From Sistotremastrum niveocremeum HHB9708 (taxonomy: Eukaryota; Basidiomycota; Agaricomycetes; Sistotremastrales; Sistotremastraceae), in assembly GCA_001630475.1 (NCBI GenBank), contig KV419461.1, positions 62,880-89,697 on the forward strand: a DNA stretch of 26,818 nt, read 5' to 3'. The notes under the pieces were generated by a model. The model saw only the letters and a program-made list of their open reading frames with translations, was not told the DNA's origin and did not search any database. Every line of letters begins with the position of its first letter. The stretch's first letter is position 1. Position numbers and translations under genes: made by a program. This document shows, piece by piece, positions 1 to 26,479 of this stretch.

Positions 1-449
1 ATATGTAGTTAGCTTCGTTGCCCGGTTTCCTCATAGATACCGGTGCCTTCGTACCTGACTCATCGCTCAGACTCTCGAATATGACTCATACTTAGCACTT
101 CGCATTCATGTATATATCAAATATTCAAGGACTCTATCTAGTATAAATACGCCTGTAAACTACCCCTAAGAACATCGAAATATACCTCAGTTTACCCCTT
201 ATTTGATTCTCGCCTGCGAAGCAACTTGTGCCTCAAGATCGACGAGTACCTTATCGAGCTCACTTGGAGTTCCTTTGTTGACAGTCTTTCGCTTGAGTCT
301 TTGTAGATTCTTGGATCGACTTGTATATTGAATATATTGTAACTTTTGACTACTACACTCTTTCTATATTCTCTACAGACATTGTTTGCATTAAGTACTG
401 CACTTACTGGGGGGATCGTAGTGCATCTTGTATTGTAGTCTTGATAAGC
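1..449 (+). other. Tail of unit 0 (partial at window edge)
   Basis: No protein-coding frame is convincing here. The stretch is assigned to the 3' part of an array unit only because it ends in the same motif that closes the other units (427-449). A TATAAATA sits at 142-149, but no CYATCT initiator follows at the usual distance, so it is probably not the core promoter of this unit. The 5' part of the unit would lie outside the window. Confidence 0.35.
427..449 (+). terminator. Unit 0 end motif (putative 3'-end signal)
   Basis: The sequence TTGTATTGTAGTCTTGATAA matches the motif that recurs at the end of the array units. The UUGUA and GAUAA parts would suit a fungal cleavage and polyadenylation region, but that role is inferred from position and recurrence. 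Confidence 0.4.
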
Positions 450-1137
450 ATCCGAGAAAGTTTTCTGAAATTGTCAGAGTGATTTTTGAGTCCATGAAAG
501 CCTTGTTGAGATGTACGTCGCACTGTCGTTATGTCGGAGTTGTTACTGAACATCATACTTCTTTTCAAGGTGTTGGATGAATTGACTGAGCTTCTTCTCT
601 CTGGGACGCACAGGCAGTCTGTTTCTCATTGTCAAAATCAGAGTCTATACCTGACTATCCATTAATGTCCAGATTATGCTCAGTCATTCTTGAACAACCG
701 CTTCAGGTTGCGTGAGTGATCCTCGTTGTAAGTTATTTTTTTTTTTGCCGCTCAATTGGTCTCATGCTTACTCTCTGCTTGATTTTTCGTCAGGTTCTGG
801 CAAATATCCAGATTCTGGACGACGTGCGTTTGTCCTGTCTTTGTCTTCACCTCATTGGCTGATAATTTGATTAGTTTTTCATGCTAGGAGATCTGCGTGT
901 GGGAATTTGAGTCGGTGTTCCGTCTGTAGTTTAGGCTCTTCTTGAATAAATTCATATTTGTTTGTCTGAATTCCGACGTGGACTCGGGTATATCTATTGT
1001 TCGGCGTGAGCTAAAAAATTTGCCCGACGCTTTTCATATTTGCATAACCTATCACTCCTCAATCGATTCGAGCTATGTCCAGCTTCGCCTGAGAAGAGAA
1101 CCTAAATAACACACAGTTTCAAGTTGGAAAGCGAAGC
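450..1137. other. Inter-unit spacer, no gene seen
   Basis: About 690 bp between the unit 0 end motif and the unit 1 CRE-like box, longer than the usual 130-310 bp. Stops are frequent in all frames. I see no repeat or RNA gene. A short T-tract lies near 735. Confidence 0.5.
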
Positions 1138-1156
1138 GATGTTACGTCACGTCACT
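1138..1156 (+). promoter_or_regulatory. CRE-like box of unit 1
   Basis: The core GTTACGTCACGTCAC (1141-1155) is identical to the core in units 2, 3 and 6, but the flanking GCG and CGC are degraded here. ACGTCA/TGACGT is the recognition core of ATF/CREB-type bZIP factors, so this is probably a tandem bZIP site. Which factor binds is not known. Confidence 0.6.
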
Positions 1157-2161
1157 CATTTTCTCCTTCCCCAATGCCAGCAACATCTCTCGCATCCGTG
1201 AAACATCCAGCGGACCATGCTCTCAATCGAATCACTGGATTTCTTCAACACAAGGTGCTGGGATAATATTGAAAGCTCTTTCTGAAAGCCCACCTCACTC
1301 GGTGGCCCAATGAAATATTAGCTTACGCGTCTACGTTGAAGATGGCAGGACGACTGAACGTGTTTCATCCCTTTCCCTCTCACACGCCCTGCTTAGATAT
1401 CAAGATGGAATCATAGTCATTCTATCGCTGATGTTCAGCAAGGCCGCCCGTCTGGTCTTCCGTCCTCCCTGAGAATTGCGGCTGCAAGATCTAGATGACG
1501 CGTCTCTCGCCATCCTTCTAGGATCGTCTATCTTTGGCGGAGCGTGACTAGGGCTGTGATGAGAGAAGGATGAGGACGAGGGCTGTGCTGTTGCGCTTCT
1601 GGGATTGGGTGGAAGATGAGGCTCGCGTGATCATTTGGTCTGGGAACTCGATGTGGAGGTACGTCTCGGACGATGCAAAATGAATTTACCTGAGCGTGCT
1701 CTCCCCAGAACTCCTTGTCGTGCATCTTCAGGTTTGCCCTATAGACACCTTGACTGCGCTCTGCTATCGATTATCTGGGCAGTTAATTGCATTCATATTG
1801 TTTGAATATGTCATCCCGAATATTCATGCGTGTGGCGGGGCTCAAGATATTGAATCGAGACTCGTATATTTTCATTTGATCGTGTCTTCTGCCATCTATC
1901 GAACGCTGTCGATCTTGATCGTTATATTCTGGCTTGGCTCGATGCTCTCTCATCGCAGATCCACTCCGGTTCAAACGCGATGCCTCCGCGTGCTTCGGCG
2001 AAGTTGATCACCTCGATCGATCGATCCGATCAATTTGCTCCCGATCCATGTCCGATCGATGTACCTATCCCCAAGTTCAAAAGCTTGGCATCCTTCTCCT
2101 CCCGTCCTTCTCCTCTTCATCATTCTCGATCGCTCGCAACTCAATTCAATCCGTTCAGATC
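1157..2161. other. Unit 1 upstream promoter region, no gene seen
   Basis: About 1 kb between the CRE-like box and the proximal box. Only short overlapping open frames occur on both strands. From about 2010 there are runs of GATC/TCGA, also found upstream of units 2, 3, 6 and 7. Confidence 0.45.
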
Positions 2162-2300
2162 GCCAAGACGTTCCCAAAATAGATTCCGATTCTCTCCATC
2201 CATTCAGTTCCATTGCCGCTTCTTTTCTGTCTGGACCGTTGACCTGCGGATATAAAAGCAGCGCAGGTTGGGAGGGTGATGCCCCATCTACACCCCATCT
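2162..2300 (+). promoter_or_regulatory. Unit 1 core promoter: GCCAAGA box, TATA box, CYATCT initiator
   Basis: The GCCAAGA box at 2162 is followed by TTCCCAAAATAGATTCCGAT. TATAAAAG lies at 2251-2258 and two CCCCATCT motifs at 2282-2300. Spacing is 89 bp from box to TATA and about 31 bp from TATA to the CATCT repeats, as in units 2-4. The upstream box differs from its unit 2 counterpart by a one-base indel, so it is conserved as DNA rather than as codons. Confidence 0.7.
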
Positions 2301-2893
2301 CTCGCTATCTACGACTGTCGCCCCTCGGCAATTTCTTGGTTCGCTCTCTGACATCTCGTCCTTCATTTCGCTCGCGCTTGTCATTATTCTTGACTGCGTC
2401 CTAGAAAATCCTCGTGATCTCTCGTATTGCAGTTCTGAAGTGCCGTCCGCGTGATACGATCAGTCTCTACATGTTTTGACGGGTACTGGTCGCTAAACGA
2501 TATGGCCCATGGTGTGTCAATTTTCCGTTTTCCATGCTTTTGTGGTTTTCTATTGACTGTTTGATAGGTTTGTTTGAACCAAACACTTGATGCTCCGCGC
2601 TCCAAATGCCATCCGGGCTCTTTGCATCTGGCTACCTCGACGGTGCGCTCCATACTTGTCGTGTATTTCTATCTATCAAAACCGTTCATTTAGACCCGTC
2701 GGTGGCCGATTGAGAGTTTGCGGGCTGTGAAAAATCGTTCCATGTAAGGCTTTCTCTTCACATCGTTTTTGCTCCGAGTTAACACTACATTCAGACACTG
2801 AGCCCGACGGCCATGTTTGCTGGTGGTCCCAGTAGAAGGTGGACGTGGTGCAATGAGGCTCGTCAGGTAGTTGCGAATGGGTTTGGTAAGTTG

Positions 2894-3192: not shown

Positions 3193-3704
3193 GTAAGTTG
3201 TTTGTTAGATCATCTTCACGATCTTCATCGCTTATGTCAACGATCCTACAAGACGGTTATACAAGGTGTTGTCAAATGAGCCTTTGAAGAGAGTCTGTCC
3301 TAGGTGAACGTCCAATTATTCGTTCTTCTCTCTATCGCTGATCTAATTATCTTCCAGTCTCCGTCTATTGCATCGTCACCACCATCATCACCGCTCCATG
3401 AGGGCTATGGGCTTCAGATGCTCATGCAACCTCTCGCAGTGCCATGTCGACCCATACTTCATGAACTGTAAGTCTGCATCGATCTGTCCTCGACGCTTCT
3501 GACGAGATTTAGCTATCTACACTGGACCATACGAGCGGAGCAACATCTCACATGTCTGATGTGATAATCATTCGTTGACGGACGAGTCCACGTGATCATG
3601 TCACAGATGTCGCGAGGAGAACAGTCAGCATGAGGCGAGGAAGTGCCTGCGAGATACTCGTGAATCTTGTTCGGTAAAGCGTACTACACGTATGACGAGG
3701 GATT

Positions 3705-3730
3705 TTTGTATTTTAGTTTTGGATAATAAA
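3705..3730 (+). terminator. Unit 1 end motif
   Basis: TTTTGTATTTTAG is followed by TTTTGGATAATAAA. This matches the repeated end motif and includes an AATAAA-type hexamer. It lies 310 bp before the next CRE-like box. Confidence 0.5.
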
Positions 3731-4039
3731 GCCCCAATTCCTTCTGAAATCCTCGGCGTGATACCATTATATCGAATCTCAATCTCAGGTATGGTACGCC
3801 TGTATACTATCCGTATTCGAAACATGGGGAGACTGGCGAATAAAAGTCATAAAACCAACGTGCCAATCAGGGGATCGGCCTTTTGAAGACGCAAGATATT
3901 CTGATTAAAATATCGATATTTGTGCTGGAGATCATCTTTTTTTCTGATCAGGTGTCCCGGGTTTCTGAAGACTCCAGCCGACAGATCAGTAAATTCCCTT
4001 TCGAACGCAAGCCATAAACAAACTCCGAAACTGAAGAAC
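3731..4039. other. Spacer between units 1 and 2
   Basis: No gene seen. Just before the box is an AAACAAAC tract (about 4015), which also precedes the CRE-like box in units 3, 5, 6 and 9. Confidence 0.45.
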
Positions 4040-4058
4040 GCGTTACGTCACGTCACGC
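4040..4058 (+). promoter_or_regulatory. CRE-like box of unit 2
   Basis: GCGTTACGTCACGTCACGC, the full 19-bp form with GCG and CGC at its borders. It is identical to the unit 3 box and probably a tandem bZIP site. It lies 520 bp before the TATA box. Confidence 0.7.
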
Positions 4059-4490
4059 TCTGTTCTTTTTCTCTCTTCGTCTCTCGAAGCCTGTTCGTCA
4101 CGACGCTCTGAAGCATCATCCGAGTCCTATACCCACTTTTCCGAGGCTTGAAATGGATAGATAGCGCATTGGATGAGGCGACTCAGCCCGTTCTTCGTCA
4201 ATCCGCCGATGCTCGATAGAATCTGTCAAAAGTTCTCCCGCGAGATGCGGTATGATCTTCCTTTGATCTATCAGACGCGTGAACTCATCGTCGGCCATCT
4301 AAGTATCTCGATCTCAAGCCAGTCTTCCGGCCCTTTTGGAAAAGTCCAATCCGTCGATCGATCGATCGATCGTGTCCAACCAAATCGGGAGAGGAGCTTT
4401 CCGTCTAGAACGCGCATGGCACGTCTTCTCCTTCCGAATCCTTCCCGTCTTTCTCGATCCCTACCGAACTCAAATCGATCCGCGCAGATT
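4059..4490. other. Unit 2 upstream promoter region
   Basis: Pyrimidine-rich plus strand with no supported gene. A run of GATCGATC lies at about 4353-4372. The sequence TTCGTCAATCCGC near 4195 recurs near 6196 in unit 3, suggesting a shared upstream element. Confidence 0.45.
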
Positions 4491-4627
4491 GCCAAGACCT
4501 TCCCAAAAATGACTTCCGAATCGTTCCATACATTCAGTTCTTTTCCGTCTCGTCGGTCTGTCTTCGTGATCTCGGGGTATAAAAGGAGGGAGACTTGCTT
4601 CAAGACACCCCATCTACTCCCCCATCT
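4491..4627 (+). promoter_or_regulatory. Unit 2 core promoter
   Basis: GCCAAGACCTTCCC at 4491 is followed by AAAAATGACTTCCGAATC. TATAAAAG is at 4578-4585 and the CCCATCT repeats at about 4608-4627. Box-to-TATA spacing is 87 bp and TATA-to-initiator about 31 bp. This copy is the best match to the consensus of the array. Confidence 0.75.
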
Positions 4628-4924
4628 GTCGTCATGTGCATGTCTGGGTCTTGTGTTACTTCTTGATCTCTCATTCCGTACCTCTTCTATAAATTTATCT
4701 CCTCCTGTGCTTTGATATCCCCACTTCCGAACGCCGTCTCATGATAATTCCTAACCTGTTTTGAGGTCAAGGCTGCACTCCGTCACCTGAACCCAAGTCC
4801 GTTGGTGACATTGGATTTTGCGACGCAATTCTGCTAAGGTACGCGTCTATCCGATGCTTCTTCAATGTACACTAACAGTTGTTTAGCCTCTTGATCGGGC
4901 ACTGCTAGCTTTCTCTCGGCTATA

Positions 4925-5643
4925 ATGGAGCAGGACTGTTCCCTCGACATCAACCATACGGTGCGATTTCCACTCCTGATCTTTTCTGTCGTCTTATTTA
5001 TTTGATCGTTTTAGCCGTGGATACAATCCCCGATACCTTGTGCAATTGTGGATAGCCCTCATTGGCCGTGGAAGTATCATACTAGTGAGTTCGGCTTTTG
5101 ACCGTCTTGATTTGGATTTATAATGATTCAGACACGACTGAACGACGTGGGTCGGTTTGAAACCGAAACGGAGGCGGCTCTGACCCTCTTGCAGTATGAA
5201 ATGGTCGAGAAGACCCACTGCGAGTTTCCGTAAGTAGCTCATTTTACTGGCTGCTGATTCCCGATTTACTCAATCCGGCTATCGAGCAGGTCTTTGTACA
5301 AGCCACGATCAGGAAATTCCGCTGCTGTAAAATCTTCCGTGAGCGTCCCAGATATTCTTGCTTTGGCTGAATTGCTAATTCGAAGGTCTCCAAAGCTCGC
5401 CTCCGTAGTGTACATGTCGATCGAGGAAAGCTGGAGCTTCGGAGATGTCTCAGGACCATGGCATATCTATCTACGGTCTCATGTTGGTGATGCTGAGTCG
5501 CGTGTGAGTCTTTCTTGATATTCTTTCTGAATCTTACTGATCAAATCCAGGCGATCATTACATCCGCTTGTAGACCTATTGCGTATCCTCAGAGAGCGGT
5601 AGACGAGCTGACTCACCGGTCATCGGAAGGTAGTTGCATGTGA
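4925..5643 (+). CDS. Unit 2 candidate small protein (six-exon model)
   Basis: I do not recognise this product. One splice model gives 115 residues: exons 4925-4960, 5056-5084, 5195-5229, 5290-5326, 5386-5503 and 5551-5643, with the stop TGA at 5641. The best-supported part is the last two exons (31 codons in the final one), joined by a clean GTGAGT...CAG intron at 5504-5550 and containing the motif ESWSFGDVSGPW. The first junctions are weak: the acceptor at 5055 and the GTAAAA donor at 5327 were chosen to keep the frame open. No signal peptide or known domain is visible. The leader has a 10-codon upstream ORF at 4634. A spliced non-coding RNA is a real alternative. Confidence 0.25.
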
Positions 5644-5743
5644 AGTGCCCCATCCCTTCAGTGAACTTTTCGTCTCCGACATTACTGCGAGATGATGACA
5701 GAGTAGCATGATGCTTGGGTATATCGGATCAGTGCCAGACATT

Positions 5744-5765
5744 TTTGTATTATTATTTTGGATAC
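5744..5765 (+). terminator. Unit 2 end motif
   Basis: TTTTTGTATTATTATTTTGG followed by ATA, about 100 bp after the candidate stop and 274 bp before the next CRE-like box. It matches the motif at the ends of the other units. Confidence 0.5.
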
Positions 5766-6038
5766 AGGTGAATAACTTCCATCAGAAATTTTGTGTGTGA
5801 GTCCGGGATCATAAGTCACTTCCCATTGAACGCGATCAGCGGCTTCAAGAGGGGCTGCAAGGACGGAGAGAACCGACTGCAGCGCAGAGATCATTGGTAA
5901 AAAGATCTTACTCATTTCAAGGAAACTACGAAAATTGATTGAGTAGCTCATTCAAACCTTTCCCTTGATGCTTCAGAAAGCAAACCGATAGAACACAGCT
6001 CGAACGCCAGAAACAAACAAACTCTTGAAGTGGAGAAC

Positions 6039-6057
6039 GCGTTACGTCACGTCACGC
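6039..6057 (+). promoter_or_regulatory. CRE-like box of unit 3
   Basis: GCGTTACGTCACGTCACGC, identical over 19 bp to the unit 2 box. It is preceded by AAACAAACAAAC at about 6011. Confidence 0.7.
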
Positions 6058-7560
6058 TCTCTTCTCCGCCGCAGCCTCATCGAGGCTACATCCTGCTCGC
6101 CATGAAGGCCCAGACGCGCCATCCAATCCTCAAACCACTGTTTCGAGGTCTGTTATGAATAAAGAAGATACTGAGCGAGGTGATTTCCGCTGATATTCGT
6201 CAATCCGCTCGTCATCTGATCTATAAATTTTCAAGCATTGGCTGCAGGTGCAGCTGCGTCGTGCCTCTCATGATCAATGACGCCGAAGATTCAACATGAA
6301 GATGTATCGGCACCCCCTCTCATCAATATTCTCACTCCTCGATGCCCTTCCGTCGGTTCAGCTTGCTCAGACTCATCTGTGAATGACGTGTCGATCCGTC
6401 TCAAGAAGCAACCATCCGTCATCCTCCAACCTGTCCTGATGATAAAGCGTCATCTCTTGACAATCAGCACACGACATTCCATCCATCACTAAATGAAAAC
6501 GTGGCATTGAGCCGAATAGAGGACGAATAGAGGACGAAGGGAGCGATAAGAGACTTGATGCAGGACTGTGAGTGATTTGATGACACATCTCTTATCGACC
6601 CCCCATCATTCATACCTGTCTAAGCCTTCTCCGCTTATATCTTAATCCTCCACCTGCCATGATCGCTCCTCAATCGTTGTGATCGCCTTATTCGGTCTCT
6701 CGTCGTCGGGCGCCTATCACGAATCCAAGCTGAAGCAAGCCAGCGAATGCTGGACACGGGAGCTTGGTCCTTATTCTTCGCCTCCAGAAGTCGAATTTAA
6801 GCTGTTCAGGTCTTCTGCGATTGTCATGTCGAGGCCTCCCGATAAATCCTTGATAAACGTGGGCGGAAAGCAGTCTGGAATGGATGCGATGCTTAGTGTG
6901 ATACTGGCGGAGAAGATAGAGTACTGAAATCGGATCATACCTCGTGAGTAATCTGCATGCACGTTGTCAGCTCACTGACTCATTACCCTCAAAGGTACAC
7001 AAAACAGACGATAGAACATGTACACTGTGTCGAAGACCAAGTGCGCTGTCGTCTCTGGGATTCAATCGATACTCTCCATCTACTGATAATTCTCTTTTGA
7101 CTTCTTTCTCTATCGTCCGCGTGGCTCGACGTTCCAATTTTTGTCAACGGATTTTCTCCGTCCCAGTCGTTCCACATTTGTATAGGGCTTTGATACACAA
7201 GTCTCCTTTCGATAATGATACAAGCCTCGGCCAATAATAGAATAGCTGCTTTATAGCTCTACTTCGATCGTTTCCCGCTCGATCAGACACCCCCGTGGAT
7301 CTCGGGAGACACATATTCTCTTCCCCTTCCGAATCTGAGTACTCCACATCGATCTCCGGAGCCTCATTGTGATCTGCGGTCTTCTTTCTGTCGATCGTCG
7401 AAACCATACGATCGATCCGCTTTTGGAGCCCGTTCGGCGGCTAATTTCCCTTGTCGATCTCGATTGAAAGCTTCCCTACCTCGTATATGCGCCTTCCTTC
7501 CTTCCGAGTCCTTCCAATGACACATCGCAAGGAGTTGTCTTGCCAGATCTCTCCCCAATT
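6058..7560. other. Unit 3 long upstream region, no gene seen
   Basis: About 1.5 kb between CRE-like box and proximal box, the longest such gap without a recognised insertion. Several frames of 60-100 codons overlap on both strands, but none has codon regularity or recognisable motifs. An undetected element or a decayed gene could lie here. Confidence 0.4.
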
Positions 7561-7713
7561 GCCAAGAATTTCTCCAAGAATAACCTCCGGATCGACCCAC
7601 ATGTCCCGTCCTACTTCTTCCCGTTCTCCGGAGTTTCGATTGAGCGAGTGGGAGTATAAAAGGACGAGAGCAGCCTGTGCGTTCTCCCATCTATTCTCCA
7701 TCTACCCCCATCT
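7561..7713 (+). promoter_or_regulatory. Unit 3 core promoter
   Basis: GCCAAGAATTTCTCCAAGAA at 7561, TATAAAAG at 7655-7662, then three (C)CATCT repeats from 7686 to 7713. Box-to-TATA distance is 94 bp and TATA-to-initiator about 31 bp. Confidence 0.72.
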
Positions 7714-7988
7714 GCTGCGTTACGTTCGGCTGTCGTGTTACGCCCCCCTCTTGGATATTGACCCTTGTAAACCACTGCCTTCTACCGATCCTAACCACTT
7801 TTGGATTTTCTGTTTCTCTTCACTGTCATGCCTTCCACATCTCCAGGGCCGAATCCTCCCTCGCTGGCTGCATGATTCGGTATAACTTTTGGTCGTCAGT
7901 ACTTCGTGCGATTGTCAGTCGACTCTCTCTTGCTATTTTGAGCCATTTCTGAGGTAGCATCACAGGGTTCTGTCGTGGAAGTCTGGGA

Positions 7989-8689: not shown

Positions 8690-8780
8690 TGTGTCACAGG
8701 CGTCGCTTTCTTCTGCATCGGAAGCCAACCTCTGGATCTCAGCTGGGCGAACAAAAGCTCTGCAAGAGTATAGATATATA

Positions 8781-8817
8781 TTTTGTATGACAGGATGGGT
8801 AGACACTTGGATAATCG
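8781..8817 (+). terminator. Unit 3 end motif (split form)
   Basis: TTTTGTATGACAGG and ACACTTGGATAATC are separated by about ten bases, where other units have one compact motif. It follows the candidate stop by about 100 bp. Confidence 0.4.
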
Positions 8818-8947
8818 AGCGTATTCGCTTCTGAAAATCTGCTTGCGATCAGTGAGATTTTTCCATTGACAATATGTCATTCAACCCAAGCTTCGTTGAG
8901 CAGAAGAAGAAACAAACGAAAAACCAAATTTCCGACACTCGTCCGCA

Positions 8948-9423: not shown

Positions 9424-9571
9424 GCCAAGACCATTGTTCAAAAATAACTTCCGGATTCATCCTTCAATTCATTACTCCCATATCTTCTTTCGGTGTCCGT
9501 CGAGTTGCTGGACTATAAAAGACGGGCAGAACATCGTTGCTCTCCATCTATCCCCCATCTATCTCTTCATC
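9424..9571 (+). promoter_or_regulatory. Unit 4 core promoter
   Basis: GCCAAGACCATTGTTC at 9424 is followed by AAAAATAACTTCCGGATTC. TATAAAAG is at 9514-9521 and the CCATCTATCCCCCATCTATC initiator begins at 9543. Spacings are 90 bp and 29 bp. The upstream box contains an in-frame TAA, further evidence that it is not coding. Confidence 0.72.
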
Positions 9572-9827
9572 TTGTCTGTCTATCTCATCACCTGGATCGC
9601 TGGGAGAGCTGGTCTCACCCTTCACTACTATCTGCACTCGGGCCCTCCTCTCGAACGGACATCTATTCACCCTTACCGCACCACCCACCTTCCCGTCTCA
9701 GTGGAACACTGGTTGTCACTTACACCAGACGTGTTGCGAAGCCCGCCATTGTCATACACCATCCTAGCACAGTGAGTTTGACGAACCTTTCTCGTCTCCG
9801 AATTTTTGCTAATATTTTCAAGGCTGC

Positions 9828-10437: not shown

Positions 10438-10601
10438 ATGCGTTACAGTGTATGGATTGGAGAGCTATCGTATCGGTTGTCCTTGTGGTGCATAGTTCAG
10501 GTGGTGCCTGAGTGTCGTTGGTGCTTCTCGGGTTTATCGGGACATTCATTACTGTACCGGTCTTTTGTCCAAGATTATTATCTACTAGTATTTAGGACAT
10601 G

Positions 10602-10624
10602 TTTGTATTGTAATCTTGGATGTA
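10602..10624 (+). terminator. Unit 4 end motif
   Basis: TTTGTATTGTAATCTTGGAT, the closest match to the consensus. It lies 261 bp before the unit 5 CRE-like box. Confidence 0.55.
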
Positions 10625-10884
10625 ACTGCTATTTTCTCTTCTGAAATCTACCGTGTGAGCTGAGCCGGAAGATTTCTTCACAGTGACACAGACAAACTTC
10701 CATTGATTAGGGAAAGACGTACATCACCTCGACGAGTCATACACGTCTCGTTCCAAGCCTCGTTCGAGGAGGAAAATCTTTACCAACGACATTCTCCCGC
10801 TTGCTAAAGCCCTCAAGCGGACCAATCACTATCTTTCATGTAATCAGTCCGTTCTCGACAAACAAATGGAAAGAAACAGAAATT

Positions 10885-10903
10885 GCGTGACGTCACATCA
10901 CGC
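10885..10903 (+). promoter_or_regulatory. CRE-like box of unit 5
   Basis: GCGTGACGTCACATCACGC, which contains a perfect palindromic TGACGTCA, the classical ATF/CREB site. ACAAACAAAT lies about 25 bp upstream. Confidence 0.7.
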
Positions 10904-11603
10904 TCCCCTCTTCATCCACGACATCGTAAACGAGAACACCTTATTGAACGCCAACATGAGATCTGAAGCCCTCGAGATAACATTTACACAAATCATGCCC
11001 AGCTCCACGTTTTGCACGAGCCTCTACCGATAGGATCCTGGCAATGAAAACAAAACGGAGTCCGCTTCAATTCTTGGGTGACTAGAAAGAGGGATGGAAC
11101 TTGATGCAAGAGAGGAGAGGATGTCTTGGGTACGTGCATTCTTATTTCAAAATGATCTTCAGTCTCTGATCTCGAATGCGAGACTAGGTTCTCAGATTGG
11201 CTGCTGGTTTATTTTATCTGGGGGACGACGTGGCCTCGACATCTGACTGGCATCATTTCTACCTCTGTCATCGCATGAACCTTTTCCCTCTTGCTCAGTC
11301 CATCCATCTCCGTCGCTGCGTCATCGAAGACGGCTCCGAGACCTTCCTTTTCTTACCGATCTGAAGGAACTGTCGATCTCAGGCATCAACCTCCGATTCT
11401 CCCGATCTCTGGCGCCCACGAGGATTCCTCTCAATCGCCTTTCCAGTTTCGGCTCTTCTCTCCCCTTATGAGTAATTTTGATGTCAGCTACTGAAGGTCG
11501 GGATCGAGACGGAATCTCATCTCAAGGAACGCACCGTCCGATCGACTCCTCTTCTCCCGGCTTCTTCGGCGCTAAAATCAAATTTACTTCCGCTCTCTGT
11601 TGT
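10904..11603. other. Unit 5 upstream promoter region, no gene seen
   Basis: No supported gene. ACCGATCTGAAGGAAC near 11357 recurs as ACCGATCTGAAGGCAC near 14312 upstream of unit 6, so the two promoters share an upstream segment. Confidence 0.4.
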
Positions 11604-12363: not shown

Positions 12364-12515
12364 TCTGTTGTACCTCCAGAAATATCGCGCGATCTCTTCC
12401 GGTGTCAAGTACTTCTCGGAGCTCTCACCTCGATCTCGTCATGCGATCTTGTCATCGGAATCGAAACTAATTGAGACTCGATCTGGAAACTCCGTCCTTC
12501 GCGGACTTGAGATGG

Positions 12516-12575
12516 TATATAAGGAGGACCGACTTCAATGCCTTTCTTCATCTCCCCACCATCTGTGTCCATCTA
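12516..12575 (+). promoter_or_regulatory. Unit 5 core promoter
   Basis: TATATAAG at 12516-12523, then TTCATCTCCCCACCATCTG and CCATCTACG from about 12547, 31 bp downstream. The GCCAAGA box is not recognisable: only a weak ATCGGAATCGAAAC near 12455 may correspond to its second half. Confidence 0.65.
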
Positions 12576-12747
12576 CGCCGTTTCTCATCATGTTCTTATC
12601 TTGGATTCTTTTTTGTACTTGTGCCTGCTGCATGGATTTTCTTGTGTTTTTCCCCTCCCCGTTCAGTCGATACGACCGATTTCAAGTCTGCCTCGGATTG
12701 ATAAAGAACACCGGTCTGCATCGACGGATGCGTCATATGATCGTCCA

Positions 12748-13470
12748 ATGTTTCTGCGTTTCACTATCGCCTCGACGTGAGCCCATTCATTTATTGATTT
12801 CTGCTGGATGAAATTGATGTCTCTTCCAGAGCGATGTACATGGTAACAGATGTGATGTGTCTTCGACGGAGCGGACCACAACATCACCTCTCGAATGCCG
12901 AATCGGTAAGAGCTTTTCCATCAGAGTATCTGGTTCCGATTATTAATCCAGTCGAAGACACTTTGACATCCTCCATCCCCCTGGCTATCGATCATTGCTC
13001 CTCCACCAGAGTACATACTGTTCCTTCCTTCTCTTTCACTGACCATCTAATGTTCTATGTAGCAACAAACATGGCTAGATATGTCAAAGGGAACGCGATT
13101 GCTGTCCAGTGTCAGCACGGCATGAGGTGAGCTTTTGTTCAATGTTTTTTTTTGTAAAAATATTGAATAACGACTGTAGGATAATCGACCAGGGCGCGCA
13201 ATCAATGCTTCGCAAGCTGCCTACATGGTGCTCTACAATTGTGGCCGAGTTATGTTGGTAAGTTGGATATCAACGGGTCTGATCTTAGCCCTGGCTAATG
13301 TAAAAACAGATATTTGGTTATACGTATCCTGGCGAGAGCCAAAGGGAGTTTTCACAGCGCCAATCCTGCAGTGTGCGTGATTCAACGAAAGGGGGTAGGT
13401 TTCATTTCCTCAACGCCGTCGATGCGCCGCTGACTGATTTATTCGACAGAGGCGAGATCACTTCCGGTGA
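12748..13470 (+). CDS. Unit 5 candidate small protein (seven-exon model)
   Basis: No recognised family. Exons 12748-12776, 12832-12905, 12958-13010, 13079-13126, 13180-13257, 13310-13372 and 13450-13470 join to 122 codons, close in length to units 2-4. The middle exons give RDCCPVSARHE and AAYMVLYNCGRVML. Introns 13127-13179 and 13258-13309 are textbook fungal introns. Acceptors at 12831 and 13078 were picked because nearer AGs close the frame. Competing readings exist: an ATG at 12590, 74 bp after the TATA box, opens a Cys-rich hydrophobic N-terminus (MFLSWILFCTCACC) that runs to the first donor, and an unspliced frame spans 12834-13130. These conflict, so the product is uncertain. Confidence 0.25.
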
Positions 13471-13636: not shown

Positions 13637-13881
13637 TTCAGATGAGTCGTGGGGGCTGGATCTGTTACGGTATCTTGGATAATATATGCAGGCTTGTTTG
13701 TTCTGAAATGATCGCTGTGACGACCGTTCTGAGATGCTCCGAATTAGCCTACAATTCGAAATGCCGGAACTCAAGAGTCCACTGAAAGACCGCTTGACTG
13801 ATCACTATGCCAGACTTCCTCGATAAACTCCCTGCTGCTGAGCGTAAACGAACAAACTTTGCAATAATCCACACCCTGAAC

Positions 13882-13900
13882 GTGTTACGTCACGTCACGC
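13882..13900 (+). promoter_or_regulatory. CRE-like box of unit 6
   Basis: GTGTTACGTCACGTCACGC, one mismatch from the unit 2 and 3 form. ACGAACAAAC lies about 30 bp upstream. Confidence 0.7.
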
Positions 13901-14776
13901 AAATTCTCTTCTTCGCCTTCATCTGACGCGTCCACCGAGGCATAGCCCGTCCAAGACTTGATCATAAAGCAAATTGCAAGCAAGCCGATGGCCCGGAGTA
14001 CACCGGTTGGGTCCTCGAATATTGCCCGGATGCGGACCAAGCGTTGTGAGATTGGTGGATGACACGGCGGTGGGGGTGATAACTTTTGTCAAGAAGTTCG
14101 GATAAATTGTCTAGAATATGTTGGGCGATGAAGTCCGATTAAGGTCAGTCTTAGCATGAAGAATGCTCTATCAGTCCCTTCACTGAATAGTGAGGCGTCA
14201 TAGTTTGTCAAGGCAATGACCTGCCCGTCGCCTTCGATGACGTCGCACGGTTATCCTGCACGAATCACCCGCTACCATTTCTCACCTCTCCCGCCGATCA
14301 ACACAGCTTCCTCACCGATCTGAAGGCACTCTCGATCGCCAACGCTGGCTTCCTTCCGACCCCCTTGATCTCGTTCGATCAGCACGCGGTGCATGTGGAT
14401 CCCCTTTTCGATCGGCCTTCTCCCGGAACTCTCACAAGTCTTCTCGATGATCCAACGATCGACTTATTCACTGAAACTCCATTCGGCCATTGCGATCGAG
14501 ACGGGATCTTCAGACCCACGTTCCCTCTTCTCCCGCGAGCGCCTACTGAAAGACAGAATATGTTCTTTCGGGGAATTTCGTCCAGATGTGATGCCTTCTT
14601 CGTTGACAGATCGGAGGCCGATCCCACCTCGGTTTGTTGCTTCGTCGATCCCTTCACCTTCACGGAGCTTCCGAACCTTCTGAGAAGTGCGGTACCGAGC
14701 TCTGATCTCCGTTTGAATCCTCCAGATCGCTCGATTGCTCGATCTGTGCGATCGACATGCAGAAATCCTCCCGAAT
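13901..14776. other. Unit 6 upstream promoter region
   Basis: A pyrimidine-rich plus strand leaves a 200-codon frame open at 14365-14967. It runs through the GCCAAGA box, TATA box and initiator, so it is not accepted as a gene. A TGACGTC half-site lies near 14239. GATC-rich words occur from 14365 onward. Confidence 0.4.
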
Positions 14777-14917
14777 GCCAAGAGCTCTCTAAAATTAGGT
14801 TCCGATTCCCTCCTTCAATCCAATCCTTTCGTGAATGTCTCCGTACCGCAAAGGGCCAGTGTTCGGGTTATAAAGAGAGCGATACCTGCTCTCAGTTTCC
14901 CCCATCTACCACCATCT
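14777..14917 (+). promoter_or_regulatory. Unit 6 core promoter
   Basis: GCCAAGAGCTCTC at 14777 is followed by TAAAATTAGGTTCCGATTC. TATAAAG is at 14879-14885 and CCCATCTACCACCATCTC begins at about 14899. Box-to-TATA spacing is 102 bp and TATA-to-initiator about 22 bp, slightly different from units 1-4. Confidence 0.68.
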
Positions 14918-15758
14918 CTCTCATACCATTTTCTTGGATCCGCGTTCATTTGCCAGGTGGGAGATGAAGTTCCTTGTTCGTTCACTTCTTCTTGTACAAA
15001 ATGTATTGTTGATTCCGGTCCTTCCAGGATCAGTACCACCTCGGGTCCCAGAGTTGACGGCCTGGTAGTCATGTCCAAGCATCGGTCTAACCGCCTGCCC
15101 GTCCTTTCCGGTGAGCGTACTCCGGCTCTTCTCTCGAATGAATCGCATCCGAACCTCTCTCATAGTGGTTGCCTCTGCTTCAACGTAACATCCTCATCGT
15201 CAATTGCGAAGCTATGTCCTGGTGTTTTCTTCTTTTGTCTGGTGAGTAAAAGCTCATACTTGTTCGTCTTGGTTGATGCGTTGACTGACTTCGATTCCGA
15301 GATATTTTAGTCTGTTCAAGTTCCTGATGATCGGTGCTGAGATCGTCAGTTGTCTTTCTCGTCGGTCTCGCTTGTTCTCTTGATGATATTTGCCTCTCTC
15401 TGTCATAGTGTTCTTGTAACTTGCCACATGCTGGGAAGCGAACCGCAAAGTCTTTTGGCGACTAGAATCGGAATGGAATACCGGGTCAAGCTGTCGCTTC
15501 AGAGGAATTCCTGGTGAGCCTCGATGGATATCTTATCAGAGAATATATACTGAATCGGATTCAAAATTCCCCAGAAAGAAAAGGTTCGGCGAGAAACTAA
15601 GTGAGTCCGAAATTTATCACATCACATCCTGAAGCCGATTCGTCCTAGATTCTTCAGGGCGCACTCTCCCGGCTGAGATTGTATGCTATCGGATAGATTC
15701 TGTGAGACTGTATTGGGGTAATGTTTCTTTTGTCGGGGGATATGGAATCTTGTTGGGC
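14899..15758 (+). other. Unit 6 transcribed region with short signal-like ORF
   Basis: The first ATG after the initiator (14964) begins a frame with a typical signal peptide, MKFLVRSLLLVQNVLLIPVL, but it stops after 34 codons at 15068 unless spliced. Candidate introns are 15111-15165, 15242-15310, 15514-15574 and 15601-15648, all with GTGAG donors and AG acceptors. I found no frame that runs through the exons from that ATG. Possibilities are a very short secreted peptide, a decayed coding unit or a spliced RNA. The end region (TGTATTGGGGTAAT at 15708, GGAATCTTGTTGG at 15746) is a loose match to the end motif. Confidence 0.35.
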
Positions 15759-15986
15759 GTACTGATGTAGGGTGAATCATCGGTCACCTCCGTTAACCGT
15801 CTGCGAAGGAGAGCCCGTTTGCAACTGCCGGATTTGCGCGTGCAATGACTTGTCATTTTGAATATATTATGCATAAATTTGGTCTGAAAGCTTTGCGTGA
15901 CGTCCCAAGCATAGAAATGCGATCAGTGTCAAGTTGATCGCTCCAATCATTCGATCAACAAGCAGCAACGCTTGATGTGAGAAGGC

Positions 15987-16005
15987 GCGTTACGTCACAT
16001 AACGC
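15987..16005 (+). promoter_or_regulatory. CRE-like box of unit 7
   Basis: GCGTTACGTCACATAACGC. Here the outer arms GCGTTA and TAACGC form a perfect inverted repeat, so this copy is more symmetric than the others. It is followed by an unremarkable stretch to 16617 with no supported gene. Confidence 0.65.
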
Positions 16006-16617
16006 AGTCAATTTTCTCTCTCGCGACGATGCTACACTGACGTGCACCGGTCATGCATGATTGATTGCAGCCCTGAACACGCTTATTGAGATAGCCAGCT
16101 TCAACATCCCGTGAGCTCAAGACTGGCCGATGATTTTCTTGTAATTAGCAGGCTGGAACCCTGGCTGGATGATCTTGAGACTCAAAGGAGACCGGAAGGA
16201 GACAATGACAACGCTCAGGCAGATATTCTCGTATGTCCATGTCACTCATACAGTCAACTTGAGACTAATATCCGCTGATAGTGCGAGCGTCCTGAGAAAA
16301 CGAAACTCGTGACGGAGGCTGACGTGTCCCCTTGGTTAGCACTCAACGCGGCCCTCTTCGTTTTTAGATTGGAGGCAACAATCTGTACCATGAAGCTCTC
16401 TCAATGCCTTATTTGGCTTATCCAAACACGGATAGGGAAGGATCGAGAGTCGATCGCGATGGCATCTCGATCGATCACCGCGTCGGCCTGGTATATGGTC
16501 CAACTTCTTTTAATTCGTCTGGATTCGCAGATCTTCAGCTCTCGATCGTTCCCGCCCTTCTCTTTCAGCTTCTTCCCAGACGCTGGAGCTCCCGTCGATC
16601 AGACCCCTCAAGCTCCA
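16006..16617. other. Unit 7 upstream promoter region, no gene seen
   Basis: Overlapping open frames of 80-110 codons at 16309-16652 run into the MITE that follows and show no recognisable motifs. GATCGATC-like words occur at 16470-16480. Confidence 0.4.
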
Positions 16618-16745: not shown

Positions 16746-17024
16746 CATTTGATCCCGCTCATTCCCCCGATCACCAATTCACTTCAGCGCCATCTGCCCA
16801 GCTCTTCCGATCTCCAGAAAGGCTTGACCCTCTTCATCCAGATTCTGAGCTCGATGAATGATTTGCCGCGCTCTTCGGGAAAAACACCTTCCATCCGTTC
16901 TCCATTCCGATTTCGTCGATCCTCCGCCTTCAATTCAAATTTGCCTCCGAATCCTTCCTTCACGAAACTACACGGCCTTGTCTCAATTGATCGATCGATC
17001 GAGCCCTGATGCGTTGGAAAATGG

Positions 17025-17080
17025 TATATAAGAGCGAAGAATTCCGCACGAAAGCCCTCATCTCCCTCTATCTATCTTGT
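17025..17080 (+). promoter_or_regulatory. Unit 7 core promoter
   Basis: TATATAAG at 17025-17032 and CTCATCTCCCTCTATCTATC from about 17058, 33 bp on, followed by CTTGTCTTGGATTG, which also appears in the unit 5 leader. The GCCAAGA box is not recognisable. A GATCGATCGATCGA run lies at 16988-17001. Confidence 0.65.
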
Positions 17081-17873
17081 ACTTGTCTTGGATTGTTTGG
17101 ACTTTTTTGCAAAAACTCCGCATTGCGGTTCCGGACTCTACCTATTGGCGTATAGACAATGCGACTAAATGGCCATCGACATCCACGTACCGCATTGATG
17201 CCTCTGCCTCCAAGGTCGTCTTTGGGAGCAGCTGATATTCGGGATGTGTGTTCTCGGCGGGGGTGCGTTTTTCTCTTGATACCAAAAATATCGTGACTTA
17301 TGTATCTCTCCCTCAGCCTCGTAGGCCCATTTTAGAGTGTGAGTCCTTGCATCTTCTGTCATCATTACCACTTTCCCTGACTGAAATCTCCTGACAACAG
17401 GTCGTCCATAAACCCCTTCCCGACCGTCTACCTGGGCTGAAATCATCGAGTCGTGAGTTGTATCTATTCTTTATATTTTTTGCGGTATTTACGTGATCTT
17501 TCTGTTCCTTACACAGGCGTAAAGGGCATCGTGGATTCCTATGTCGTGTCTTCGTGATAGCTGTCACAAGAGTTCGGTGGATGTGCGTGACCTTCCTGTC
17601 TGAAATTTCTTGTTCTGAGTCATGTCGCCTTTCGTTCGTGTTCACAGAATGTTTCTTTGCTACCTGAGCTATTGAGTGGATCGTCAGTGGCATGTGAGCG
17701 AATAGAGGTTGTGGTCATTGCTGACAATGACACCTTGGCTTCAGTCAATTCGGCGGCAGTTGATATTTTGTAATCTCCAGCGCGCTCGGTGCGAGAGGTG
17801 TACTCATTTTTCTTGGCGTATGATACGTCTGTCGTAATGGATCTTACCCTCTGTACTCTTGGATAATAATACG
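17058..17873 (+). other. Unit 7 transcribed region: clear introns, no open frame
   Basis: Four well-formed candidate introns: 17263-17316, 17339-17400, 17453-17516 and 17583-17647, each with a GTGNGT donor and CAG acceptor. The exons between them (22, 52 and 66 nt) close all three frames: two have TAG in the 22-nt exon and the third meets TAA in the next. The frame from the first ATG (17158) ends after about 40 codons. This unit therefore looks like a spliced non-coding transcript, or a pseudogene whose splice sites outlived its frame. Only RNA data can separate these. Confidence 0.4.
17851..17873 (+). terminator. Unit 7 end motif
   Basis: CTGTACTCTTGGATAATAAT, a good match in its second half. 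Confidence 0.45.
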
Positions 17874-18106
17874 ATCATTCTCATGCGAAGTTTCCGGTGC
17901 ACTAACAGAAGCCATTTTGAGCTTGAATGAGGGAATTAGATGACTGTTGATTATCATGGCCCGGTCATCGGCGTTTGTACTTGTATCGTCTCCGTATCAC
18001 GAAGCCTATAGATGGACAATTAAATAATAGTATGGATCCGATCGTAACCCGAGAACTCCGCAGTGCGATGGGAGGCACGAGTTCCTGGCATCGGATTCAC
18101 AACATC
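17874..18106. other. Spacer between units 7 and 8, CRE box absent
   Basis: No gene and no CRE-like box seen, although one would be expected by 18120. A hAT-like element begins at 18107. Neither flank carries a recognisable half of the box. Confidence 0.4.
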
Positions 18107-19501: not shown

Positions 19502-19662
19502 GCCAAGAGCTTCTTTGACATATGATCTTCCGAATCTTTCCTGCGATCGGGGTCTCGTGTGATCGAGTTCAATACAGATCTTCCGGTCCTGTCATGGAGT
19601 GGTATAAAGGGACGAGGGTTCGAACGTCCTGTCCCCCATCTTTCCCCCATCTTTCCCATCTA
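19502..19662 (+). promoter_or_regulatory. Unit 8 core promoter
   Basis: GCCAAGAGCTTC at 19502 is followed by CATATGATCTTCCGAATC. TATAAAGG is at 19603-19610 and three CCCATCT-type repeats at about 19632-19662. Spacings are 101 and about 30 bp. The promoter looks intact, but its body is interrupted from about 19690 by transposon sequence. Confidence 0.7.
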
Positions 19663-19782
19663 AGCCCTGTCTTGTCTTCTTTCTTACGATAGCGTTCGAT
19701 AATGGCACATCATCCAAGCACTCGGGGCTCATGTACCACAAGGAATCATCAGGAAACACCCCCCCGAAAGTGTAGTTGATTG

Positions 19783-22813: not shown

Positions 22814-23108
22814 TACGCAATACAACCCTCTCCTTGATAATCCACTCGACGACTCATACAACGTCGGCTCTGCCGTCGCTCAGAACTCGCCCCAACCACC
22901 CGTCCCTGGCGTGACATGGAATCAGAGCGGTGCTCAAGGACACAGCACTGCTGTTCCACCTCCTTACAATTTCCAACCACACGTTGCTGGTGTCCCAGCT
23001 GCTCCCATTAATAGCAACCCTCAACCCTATGCCCCTGACCTCCAACCTCCTTTTACCGGTCCGCAACCCGCGGAGGCCGCTGCTAATCCCCCGGACCACA
23101 CTAATCTT

Positions 23109-23528: not shown

Positions 23529-23653
23529 ATCTTGGCTACCATGCTATATTGCGCTATCTCTGGCTATATGACTGCTACAATGTGGGGGTGGTGTTCCCTG
23601 ATGATGGCTATCCTAACGGCTCACCTTTTGATCTCATTTTCCATTTTGGGTGA

Positions 23654-24148
23654 GAATTTCCGCTGATAATCAATTTCCTGTCGCTGAAGATGCGATATCC
23701 GTTCCCGAAGAGGTTTCCTGAGCCATGAGGCCGCTAGGAGTTATCTCTTTGAGCGCTGATTCTTGTCAGTCTTCTTTGACTCGTAAAACTGATCCGAACT
23801 GAATGAACGCTAGGCGCATCCTACCTCTTCAGCAGTTGGGAGTTTACAGCGGGCACAGGTGAGTTTTCAAGTTTTTTTCGATCGCTGTGTCTTATTTACT
23901 TCGTCAGCCAGTAGTCCGTAACTGTAACTGAGTCAGGCGGGATAACCTGTCAATATCAAATATTTGGGGCTGAGCTTTGGCTGTCTTCTGCTTGCTTGTA
24001 AACCTAAGGCTATTCTTGTACGTCATGATGTTCGTTCGATCATTCGAAGACTAAGATTTTTCAGTTCTGCGTAGAGGAAACTTCGGACGAATTCCGAGAG
24101 TCGAGCTGCGAAGGTTTCAATGCCTATCGGTGTGTGGATGTTGGGGAA
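23654..24148. other. Remnant of unit 8 body, no gene seen
   Basis: Short exon-like and intron-like segments (GTGAGTTTTCAAG donor at about 23861) but no convincing frame. Its position before the end motif suggests the 3' part of unit 8 left after transposon insertion. Confidence 0.35.
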
Positions 24149-24179
24149 TTTTTTCTATCGTAATCTTGGCTGCAAATTG
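24149..24179 (+). terminator. Unit 8 end motif
   Basis: TTTTTTCTATCGTAATCTTGG, then CTGCAAATTG. It matches the GTAATCTTGG core and lies 131 bp before the next CRE-like box. Confidence 0.45.
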
Positions 24180-24309
24180 ATCTTTTGATTCCGAAAATGG
24201 GGTGCTTTTGGCCTTGAACTTTTTGGATGAGGATATTATGGGTGGATTCACTGACAGAAGCACCTTCGACGCTATAACCTGCGAAACAACAAACAGAGGA
24301 GAAGGATGT

Positions 24310-24328
24310 GCGTGACGTGACGTGACGC
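24310..24328 (+). promoter_or_regulatory. CRE-like box of unit 9
   Basis: GCGTGACGTGACGTGACGC. Here the TGACG repeats read on the plus strand, so this copy is in the opposite orientation to units 2, 3 and 6. AACAACAAAC lies about 25 bp upstream. Confidence 0.7.
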
Positions 24329-26322
24329 TTCATCTTTCAACCCTCGCTCTTGCCATCGTCTCAGCGTCTTGCACTATTGGAAGCCACTTGTATGGGTGTA
24401 GCAAAGCCACCATTTAGATGCGCCTCTCAAAATTCATAATTGATGGATGCTCGGAGATCTGCCATCGATCATCCGATAGACGAGAATCGTGGCTGGATGA
24501 AGCGAAGGAACGCCCTTGGATATGAACTTTTATGGTACGTCGCCGTTTCATGGACTCGAGAGCTCTCCTAACCAGATTCGCATCGACTATTTAGCTCATG
24601 ACAATCTGACGCGCGCGTCTGGATCGACTCATCGGCTCGCAGCGACGACACGTCAGCCATTCATCTCATTACCCCAACTCGACTGATCTTTCTTTCGGCT
24701 TCGAACTATCATAGAAGGATCCTTCTCAAACACAGCGTGCACTACTAGTAGAGGAAGCCGGTGTAATGGATCGCATCCCCAAAATACCTTCGCTGACTTC
24801 GTCGACAGTGTCACGATTCGCACTCCTGAACCCCCTCGATTGCACAGTTCGAAAGGGACTTGAAATCAGATCCAAGTCGCACTCACCATGTGCCTATCCG
24901 TCTTTTGAGGCCGAATTTGGGGCTCAATCAGTTGGCCCTCCAAGATCTGCATCAAAAATTTGTTAGGCGCTGGGTAGTCGTTGGAGGGAAGATTGAGACG
25001 GAAAAACGAGAGTTCTGTGGCTGGCTGAGCTGTTCATCGGATTCGTTTTTCTCAGCTGAAAAAATTGACGACAGTCAAGCTTCTCGAGCCTGAGCGGTCA
25101 CTACGAAATATTCATGCTTCCTGCTTCTTGTCACGCTCATCTCTACGTTTGTACCTTCTCAATTCCACGCGTATGCGATACTAATGACTCTTCTCCATTC
25201 TCAGTACGCTTCCGCCCATTTATCTTCATTCCTGCTCGAGCTATAGCTTGGGCGCTTCACGGACACGTTGCTCTTCGTTCACGTGGATGCCCAATAGGAT
25301 GGTACATCCCTCGTCTCTTCACTGGAAAGCTTCTGACAATATCTTACAGGCATCGTCTACGCCTCGCTTAGTCCCTACAATCTTCCGATGCTCTTTGCTC
25401 CTTCATCTCGACAACTCCTGTTTCGACTACACAATCGGCGTCGATCTGCAGTCAATGGTCAAGGCAGGATCTGTCAGATTCTTAATGAGCGCTATCTGCG
25501 TATCTGATCCCGCTTTCTTTACGGGATGTATAGATTTGGGATTTCCTGGCGATGATTTGAATTTTCTGGACCGCATTGATGGATGATCGACATCGGCCGA
25601 GGACGCCGAGAGATAGCATCCAGCCCAGAATATGTGACTTTGGACCCTATAGCAGCATTGATATATGCGTACGGTACTCTCGCTTATTCTGTCTTGTGCT
25701 CTTGCTACAGCCTCGTTGATCGTATGCGTTCCGACCTCTTGTTCTCCCTTACCTTCCACGAATGATTTCTCTTTCTCTCGGTAGCCAGGTCTTTGTCATC
25801 TCATTACTTCTTTTCTCGGGATGTTATGACTTCGGCGCTTTGCTTCATTGCCAATCAATTGGAATTCGAGACTGCTTACTATGAAGCTCCTACTATCAAA
25901 TAGATCGGATGGATATTTCTGATACGGTCCGATGTCCGGAAGTGGACCCCAATTCGCTTGGGATAAATTGACTCGGAGCGCACGGATCGTATATTCGAAT
26001 GATCGACGTGACTGAGTTGCGCAACATCTGTCAATCTCACTGCGAACCTCGATTGCCGGAAATGACGGAACTTCTTGGAGCACATGTTTGCTCCGAACGC
26101 CAACGCGATCGATCGGCTCCGTCTTCTGTACCCGAGTCCTCCCGAGGGTAAACGACTCGCGACACACTCACACTCGGCAAGATACTTCGGCATGCTCAGG
26201 CATGATTCTCCGCATGATCCCGGCCTTCACGAGACGGGCACGATAAGTACAAGTCAAAGCCAGACAAGAATTGATTTCGTATGCTAAACATTACAGTGGA
26301 ACATAGTTAGGGGTGTTATAAG
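24329..26322 (+). other. Unit 9 region, decayed or different gene
   Basis: No TATA box with a CYATCT initiator was found. CCAAGATCTGCATCAAAAAT near 24940 may be a decayed GCCAAGA box. Frames of 60-110 codons at 25114-25371 and 25248-25586 overlap each other, and short intron-like segments exist (for example GTATGCGATACTAATGACTC...CAG from 25169), but no model joins them. I see no known domain. Confidence 0.3.
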
Positions 26323-26345
26323 GACTCTATTGTAATTGGACACTG
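26323..26345 (+). terminator. Unit 9 end motif
   Basis: GACTCTATTGTAATTGGACA, matching TATTGTAATCTTGGA with a small deletion, 125 bp before the interrupted CRE-like box. Confidence 0.4.
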
Positions 26346-26469
26346 CACCAAATAACTGCAATATTTATTATTCCTCAACCATCAATATTCTCGGTGGTTT
26401 GTTTGGCTTACTGGTTCAGAGAATGATGTATAATCACCAATCTTTGCTTCAAGACGGCCAGAGATTGTG

Positions 26470-26479
26470 CGTCACGTCT
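26470..26479 (+). promoter_or_regulatory. Truncated CRE-like box of unit 10
   Basis: GCGTCACGTC, the left part of the 19-bp box, directly abuts the end of a transposon at 26480. Its distance from the end motif fits a unit 10 CRE-like box cut by the insertion. Confidence 0.45.

Follow-up and report, generated by a model that had tools for sequence, protein, structure and literature searches.

We analysed a 26,818-nt stretch of the Sistotremastrum niveocremeum HHB9708 genome (G000:C68:62880-89697, contig KV419461.1), hereafter the window. Our results suggest that it is one cluster of a genome-wide, co-regulated family of about one hundred mRNA-like, spliced and apparently non-coding RNA genes, a reading to which we assign a probability of roughly two in three. 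The window is the terminal part of contig C68, which is 89,697 bases long, and its coordinates are those of the contig minus 62879; the whole genome comprises 111 contigs totalling 34.7 Mb. The units share a regulatory frame with ordered signals, lie in clusters, present splice signals on the sense strand and show no coding signal. Their transcription, splicing, polyadenylation and joint expression are predicted from the sequence. If transcribed as predicted, these units would constitute a large co-regulated family of intron-bearing non-coding genes that keeps its regulatory frame and not its product. One could then test what, other than sequence, fold or an encoded protein, selection can preserve in such a gene.

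Promoter frame and genomic clustering

The window contains eight complete promoters on the plus strand and remnants at both ends. An earlier sequence-only reading had counted about ten head-to-tail units; the ordered signals on one strand were recovered, and the count is eight full promoters plus the terminal remnants. The signals of the frame are a TATA box at about -32, repeats of YCATCT, TTTCTTG near +48, splice sites and, often, TTGGATAATA near the end. The first YCATCT was taken as the start of each unit. Promoters were scored with R1, a sequence-only model built from 41 promoters. The eight promoters of the window are:

2171..2343, plus strand: promoter of unit 1, R1 score 75.6 bits (its sequence is part of the model that scores it); GCCAAGA box just upstream at 2162-2168; first YCATCT at 2284
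4501..4671, plus strand: promoter of unit 2, 71.9 bits; first YCATCT at 4610
7571..7733, plus strand: promoter of unit 3, 66.8 bits; first YCATCT at 7687
9437..9582, plus strand: promoter of unit 4, 59 bits; first YCATCT at 9544
12438..12609, plus strand: promoter of unit 5, 53.6 bits; first YCATCT at 12548; GCCAAGA box not clear in the alignment
14786..14946, plus strand: promoter of unit 6, 61.6 bits; first YCATCT at 14902
16935..17107, plus strand: promoter of unit 7, 40.8 bits; first YCATCT at 17058; GCCAAGA box not clear in the alignment
19522..19685, plus strand: promoter of unit 8, 64.8 bits; first YCATCT at 19636

The alignment of these promoters revealed the TATA box, the repeated CCATCT and a GCCAAGA box that is clear in six of the eight; as a pattern, this box gave five matches and none in the control. 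Not every unit carries the full set of signals that had been attributed to it: besides the GCCAAGA box, a cyclic AMP response element (CRE) lies upstream of six of the eight units, and seven of the eight bodies reach the end module (END), in one case solely if transposon debris is spanned. The spacing between TATA and the first YCATCT is highly regular, with 31-33 nt in 37 of 41 units (two of 43 promoter hits without TATA plus initiator were dropped from this count). Eleven hits outside the model presented the same spacing in seven cases, 41 and 52 nt in two, and none in the remaining two. An exact TTTCTTG was found at +30 to +80 in 13 of 41 units versus 1.3 in shuffled sequences.

The promoter model returned 49 rows in the 223 kb searched, corresponding to 47 distinct units after two duplicate rows are discounted, six of which lie outside the model. 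With the same model, five further units were identified in 10 kb of contig C9, and no match was found in C68:1-62,880, C74:20-40 kb or piece L004 of C54. We then extended the search to the entire genome with the pattern TATAWAN{20,30}CATCTN{3,7}CATCT, which recovers 33 of the 41 known units. This yielded 111 matches versus 11 in the reversed control, which is beyond chance; for the core promoter, the refuting outcome named by the sequence-only reading, with signals equally common across the genome and unordered, was thus not observed. Among the 100 matches listed of these 111, 92 are clustered on eight contigs (C9, C27, C42, C45, C54, C68, C74 and C80) and eight are scattered; ten of the 92 count TATATAAA a second time. 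The matches listed for C9 form one cluster on the plus strand (94-130 kb) and another on the minus strand (218-327 kb). Based on these sequence matches, we estimate that the family comprises approximately 100 units genome-wide.

The proposed genome search with promoter and end profiles identified further ordered units on C54, C74 and C80, where the promoter, CRE and END profiles built from the window follow the order CRE, promoter, body and END in complete units. Since these models derive from the window, their scores within it are circular, and the independent support comes from the matches on other contigs. The exact CRE pattern TTACGTCACGTCACG occurs eight times in 34.7 Mb and is absent from the reversed control. 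CRE regions were called in the window with nhmmer and the window-built model:

1083..1194, plus strand: CRE region (TTACGTCACGTCAC) upstream of unit 1
3973..4087, plus strand: CRE region upstream of unit 2, also found by exact-pattern search
5972..6097, plus strand: CRE region upstream of unit 3, also found by exact-pattern search
10823..10940, plus strand: CRE region upstream of unit 5
13844..13929, plus strand: CRE region upstream of unit 6, also found by exact-pattern search
15923..16039, plus strand: CRE region upstream of unit 7
24257..24364, plus strand: CRE region after unit 8, without a complete promoter before the contig end

Several observations were made outside these arrays. Two isolated promoter-pattern matches, at C33:41307 and C37:84605, are nearly alike on different contigs. 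The sequence CGTTACGTAACG or a near form of it occurs in pairs about 196-207 bases apart on C4, C22, C36 and C45, and seems to be a dispersed element that has no relation to the arrays. Genes of the phosphorylase superfamily, with an HMG box and for a sugar transporter lie at C74:34-44 kb between two arrays pointing apart.

Splice signals, end module and divergent bodies

Predicted introns are about 50 nt long and are strongly biased toward the sense strand. Across 42 bodies, 23 introns with a score of at least 12 were predicted in sense, none in antisense and two in mononucleotide shuffles; at a score of at least 10, these numbers were 59, 8 and 8. Fourteen of 41 units have their first donor at 222-237 nt, and the other bins contained 1.56 units on average and four at most. 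The alignment of two recent neighbours on C80 (5509/7399) places the first donor and the branch-point-like CGATACTGAT of one unit opposite those of the other. Unit 2 is a typical predicted transcription unit, and is listed here with examples of predicted introns:

4610..5814, plus strand: unit 2 as a whole, with five predicted introns scoring at least 8
4839..4886, plus strand: first intron predicted in unit 2, with its donor 229 nt past the first YCATCT
12777..12829, plus strand: first intron predicted in unit 5, with its donor 229 nt past the first YCATCT
17339..17400, plus strand: predicted intron of unit 7, score 13.9, among the highest

When up to one mismatch is allowed, 19 of 41 units contain END, versus 0.5 in shuffled and none in antisense sequences. 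These 19 matches sit 619-1435 nt past the start, and T-rich sequence with a TTCTGAAAT-like word tends to come next. The module, TTGGATAATA followed by TTCTGAAAT, looks like a polyadenylation signal. The window-built END model identified with nhmmer:

424..488, plus strand: weak END-like element (E = 0.027) of a unit starting before the window
3688..3775, plus strand: END of unit 1 (TTTTTGTAT...TTGGATAATA...CTTCTGAAAT), also in the motif listing
5727..5814, plus strand: END of unit 2
8762..8857, plus strand: END of unit 3, also in the motif listing
10582..10667, plus strand: END of unit 4
13650..13732, plus strand: END of unit 5, also in the motif listing
17836..17920, plus strand: END of unit 7, also in the motif listing
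24139..24217, plus strand: END, probably that of unit 8, with inserted transposon debris in between

The sequence between these signals was confirmed to be unshared. At the initiator, a fraction of 0.84 of the unit pairs have a 7-mer in common at similar positions, and past +60 this fraction is at most 0.09; sharing beyond about this point is at background level, so the body is truly unshared. Six-frame fragments of at least 25 amino acids (aa) gave only matches derived from promoters, CREs or repeats among units, with a few weak ones (E 0.002-0.01). DNA similarity along the body was restricted to recent neighbours such as C80 5509/7399 and C74 44848/46502; the remaining pairs have promoter, upstream or END stretches, or repeats, in common. 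A 4121-base query covering units 2-3 found no other copy of these bodies in the genome, only CRE matches. No body matched a transposon among the fetched stretches apart from inserted repeats, and a 10-kb stretch of C9 searched genome-wide contains a dispersed repeat. The over-represented 7- and 8-mers of 41 bodies (+70 to +850) were mainly 5' splice-site words, TTGGATAA and TTTTCTTG; the END word TTGGATAA was found in 8 sense and 0 antisense cases versus 0.4 shuffled. The top 6-mer score was 5.4, little above the 5.0 of one shuffle. The composition table of the bodies was based on 37 units, 4 of 41 being dropped.

Taken together, our tests indicate that the bodies look non-coding. The longest splice-aware open reading frame (ORF) was 89.1 aa versus 89.6 aa in shuffled controls, and one of 40 bodies ranked above all 20 of its controls (two of 42 were dropped as too short). 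When the test was repeated on 1500-nt stretches, 4 of 39 units were flagged in sense and 4 of 39 in antisense (about 1.9 expected by chance). A version with looser introns placed 3/39 and 1/39 above all eight controls, with 4.3 expected; both variants dropped two of 41 units as too short. In C74:20-44 kb, a stretch that carries genes, the ORF test flagged 11 strand-windows out of 46, which fall in 10 of 23 windows. Codon scores were -0.140 in sense, -0.094 in antisense, -0.120 in shuffled sequences and +0.027 in kinesin genes, and the sense score exceeded that of antisense in only 4 of 41 units. Mismatches in two duplicate pairs presented no 3-base pattern (p = 0.543 and 0.847). No excess of RNA folding was detected in 41 spliced bodies of up to 500 nt each (mean z +0.64 in sense, +0.61 in antisense). 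The window contained no Rfam match at the gathering score, and no Pfam family was above the cut-off in the 10 tested of its 64 ORFs of at least 80 aa. Among the explanations that the sequence-only reading had listed, a co-regulated set of spliced non-coding RNAs is thus the supported one, with sense-specific introns, no coding signal and common promoter and end signals.

The two recent pairs inform on how the bodies diverged. Identity in the C80 pair was 0.495 in exon 1, 0.486 in the intron region, 0.517 in the rest of the body and 0.762 in END; it was 0.772 in the proximal upstream, 0.720 in the core promoter, 0.647 downstream and 0.478 in the distal upstream (-650 to -250). The C74 pair presented identities of 0.727 in the core, 0.594 in exon 1, 0.531 in the rest, 0.674 in END, 0.639 downstream and 0.589 upstream, and unrelated bodies reached 0.37-0.45 (12 pairs). 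In the C80 pair, the near flanks (identity 0.65-0.77) have thus diverged less than the body (0.49-0.52), but the distal upstream has diverged just as much, so that constraint acting only on the near flanks would be a sufficient explanation. Hyper-diversification of the bodies was withdrawn for this reason, and the diversifying selection on the products that had been suggested is not shown by these data. Transition-biased hypermutation was rejected as well, the transition/transversion ratio of the C80 pair being 0.80-1.25 in the body versus 0.44-1.08 in near flanks, without clear bias.

The window also presents several inserted sequences. A 99-nt near-palindrome resembling a miniature inverted-repeat transposable element occurs at 21096-21194 and 22716-22814, in two copies that are 97% identical and 1620 bases apart. 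On the minus strand, 21117-21575 shares 61% identity over 44 aa with C80:49432-49680, which adjoins an ORF of contig C80 matching the Plavaka transposase family; this fragment apparently belongs to the debris splitting unit 8. Plavaka is a transposon group typical of mushroom-forming fungi, and with its introns of about 50 nt and this transposase the genome has the look of a basidiomycete-type fungus. A CAGGTACCTG-rich insert is located in the body of unit 1 (2925-3190), with flanks that look, by eye, like a short duplication, and related copies lie at 21.4-21.7 kb of the window and elsewhere on C68. Finally, 11880-12071 consists of 192 N, within repeat-like sequence that separates the CRE of unit 5 from its promoter.

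Possible use of the units and alternative explanations

We propose that each unit would be a dedicated RNA polymerase II gene built on the same frame: upstream boxes (often CRE and GCCAAGA), TATA about 32 nt before the YCATCT run, TTTCTTG near +48, multiple introns that each measure about 50 nt and, in many cases, TTGGATAATA then TTCTGAAAT. A common activator would switch the units on together, and the CRE boxes suggest what we take to be a bZIP factor of the ATF/CREB type. The RNA of the body would be free to change in sequence, with correct splicing and ending seemingly kept. The most likely use in keeping with this would be one for which the sequence of the RNA is meant to vary or is irrelevant. 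One tentative possibility is that the units serve, broadly, as feedstock for RNA interference (RNAi); another, held slightly less likely, is that their transcription and splicing as such would act on chromatin. A role as small-RNA precursors is possible because the genome possesses the genes, with Piwi matches at five places and RNA-dependent RNA polymerase (RdRP) matches at five places. More speculatively, about 100 clustered frame-only genes might constitute a renewable source of small RNAs: common promoters would activate them jointly, their introns, together with RdRP and argonaute, would channel spliced or stalled RNAs into RNAi, and the drifting bodies would renew the guide repertoire, a fungal counterpart of Piwi-interacting RNAs (piRNAs) or PHAS loci.

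Several results weigh against reading the window as part of a family of non-coding RNA genes, or against this use. Transcription, splicing and ending of the units are all predictions, and the one link between the units and small RNAs is the presence of the machinery. The genome-wide scan was less favourable for CREs than for the core promoter: the shorter pattern CGTYACGTMAYG is common (98 matches versus 42 in the control) and scattered over the genome rather than array-specific, so that a CRE alone is no marker of the family. END was absent, at one mismatch or fewer, from 22 of 41 units and from all eight held-out full-length units; it is not universal, and either differs between subfamilies or is absent in some. 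The first donor lay near +228 in only one of these eight, and the 14 similar donors among the 41 units may partly result from common descent; a single first-exon length for all units was rejected. A few weakly enriched 8-mers, such as AATATCGT in five units and CCGCAAAG in four, are unassigned. Lastly, the power of the ORF test is moderate. At kinesin loci it flagged 5 of 26 strand-windows, each of them on the coding strand. The 1027-aa frame of kinesin locus L032, although intact, was missed, probably because the windows contain no stop; very short or very unusual proteins could escape the coding tests.

The latter point bears on the possibility that the arrays consist of small protein genes in tandem that evolve very rapidly, for example genes of secreted peptides, with coding exons too short or divergent for our tests. 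The tandem clustering, the intron-rich mRNA-like layout, the strong TATA promoters and the similar position of the first donor in 14 units are all compatible with this explanation, and the spliced frame of unit 2 reaches 137 aa versus a control maximum of 134. We consider it unlikely, since ORF lengths equal those of shuffled and antisense sequences, codon scores fall below antisense in 37 of 41 units, mismatches between recent duplicates lack 3-base periodicity and the ten window ORFs tested with Pfam fell below the cut-off. Alternatively, transcription itself might be the function, the arrays keeping a chromosome region open, silent or recombining with RNA as a by-product. We give this explanation slightly less weight than the RNAi reading. 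It would account for bodies in which no constraint on sequence, structure or coding was found and for long runs of the same orientation (e.g., C9 218-327 kb, all minus among the matches listed), but it would not require splice signals and an end module to be kept, and two arrays also flank ordinary genes on C74. We rejected a retrotransposon-rich centromere at the C9 cluster, the only one judged: none of 30 matches to the reverse transcriptase family RVT_1 fell in C9:94-327 kb, the interval between its two clusters (130-218 kb) included, and a centromere-type density was not seen there.

Two further explanations concern the history of the bodies. Their replacement under a retained frame had been suggested by the sequence-only reading, and cassettes might be swapped by gene conversion or recombination. 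Several neighbouring pairs do present similar promoters and END where the bodies differ. We regard swapping as very unlikely, and the two recent pairs do not support it: their bodies still align with few gaps (0.49-0.52 on C80 and 0.53-0.59 on C74, versus 0.37-0.45 for unrelated bodies), which indicates accumulated substitutions. The query over units 2-3 likewise recovered no further genomic copy of their bodies. The family could also be dead, with pseudogene arrays stripped of their coding part, as the transposon debris of the window array and the absence of ORFs beyond chance length might suggest. This appears highly improbable: decay would be expected to do the reverse of what is seen here, where the spacing of the promoter and the signals for splicing and ending persist around bodies without an identified coding part.

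Comparison with known systems

In the matching literature, which we covered in part, we met no fungal counterpart of this family. Among fungi, the available text on Blumeria hordei describes spliced long non-coding RNAs (lncRNAs) with phased small RNAs at transposons (PMC10648671). Those lncRNAs are antisense to transposons, whereas the bodies tested here do not appear to be transposon copies and the units have a dedicated promoter frame. The antisense transcripts of Pleurotus and Pterula, which turn over fast according to the consulted portion of the report (PMC8893723), bear only on lncRNAs in general. In Cryptococcus neoformans, spliceosome-coupled RNAi (SCANR) converts poorly spliced intron-bearing transcripts into small interfering RNAs, according to the sections available (PMC5851062). 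This basidiomycete route would give introns in non-coding RNA a use; it was described for transposon-derived transcripts, however, and serves here as an analogy.

Closer similarities in layout are found outside fungi. The type I piRNA (21U-RNA) clusters of Caenorhabditis elegans, in the extracts at hand (PMC4015492, PMC6436959, PMC11262695), are large groups of genes, each transcribed on its own, that have an upstream motif in common and yield different products. They comprise more than 10,000 genes with short capped precursors of about 28 nt, in contrast to the roughly 100 intron-bearing units predicted here, of about 0.6-1.4 kb from start to END. Plant PHAS loci have only a target site in common, as stated in the accessible part of PMC8368212. 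Plant reproductive 21-PHAS loci, the precursors of phasiRNAs, resemble our arrays in that many RNA polymerase II long non-coding loci share no sequence except one short motif; our bodies are unrelated, and the words that the predicted transcripts have in common are mainly splice sites, END and TTTCTTG near +48. The plant motif is a microRNA target site in the RNA, whereas here the promoter, the splice sites and the end module are common, and the comparison is one between kingdoms. By analogy of layout, plant PHAS loci and nematode piRNA clusters are the nearest relatives of this family.

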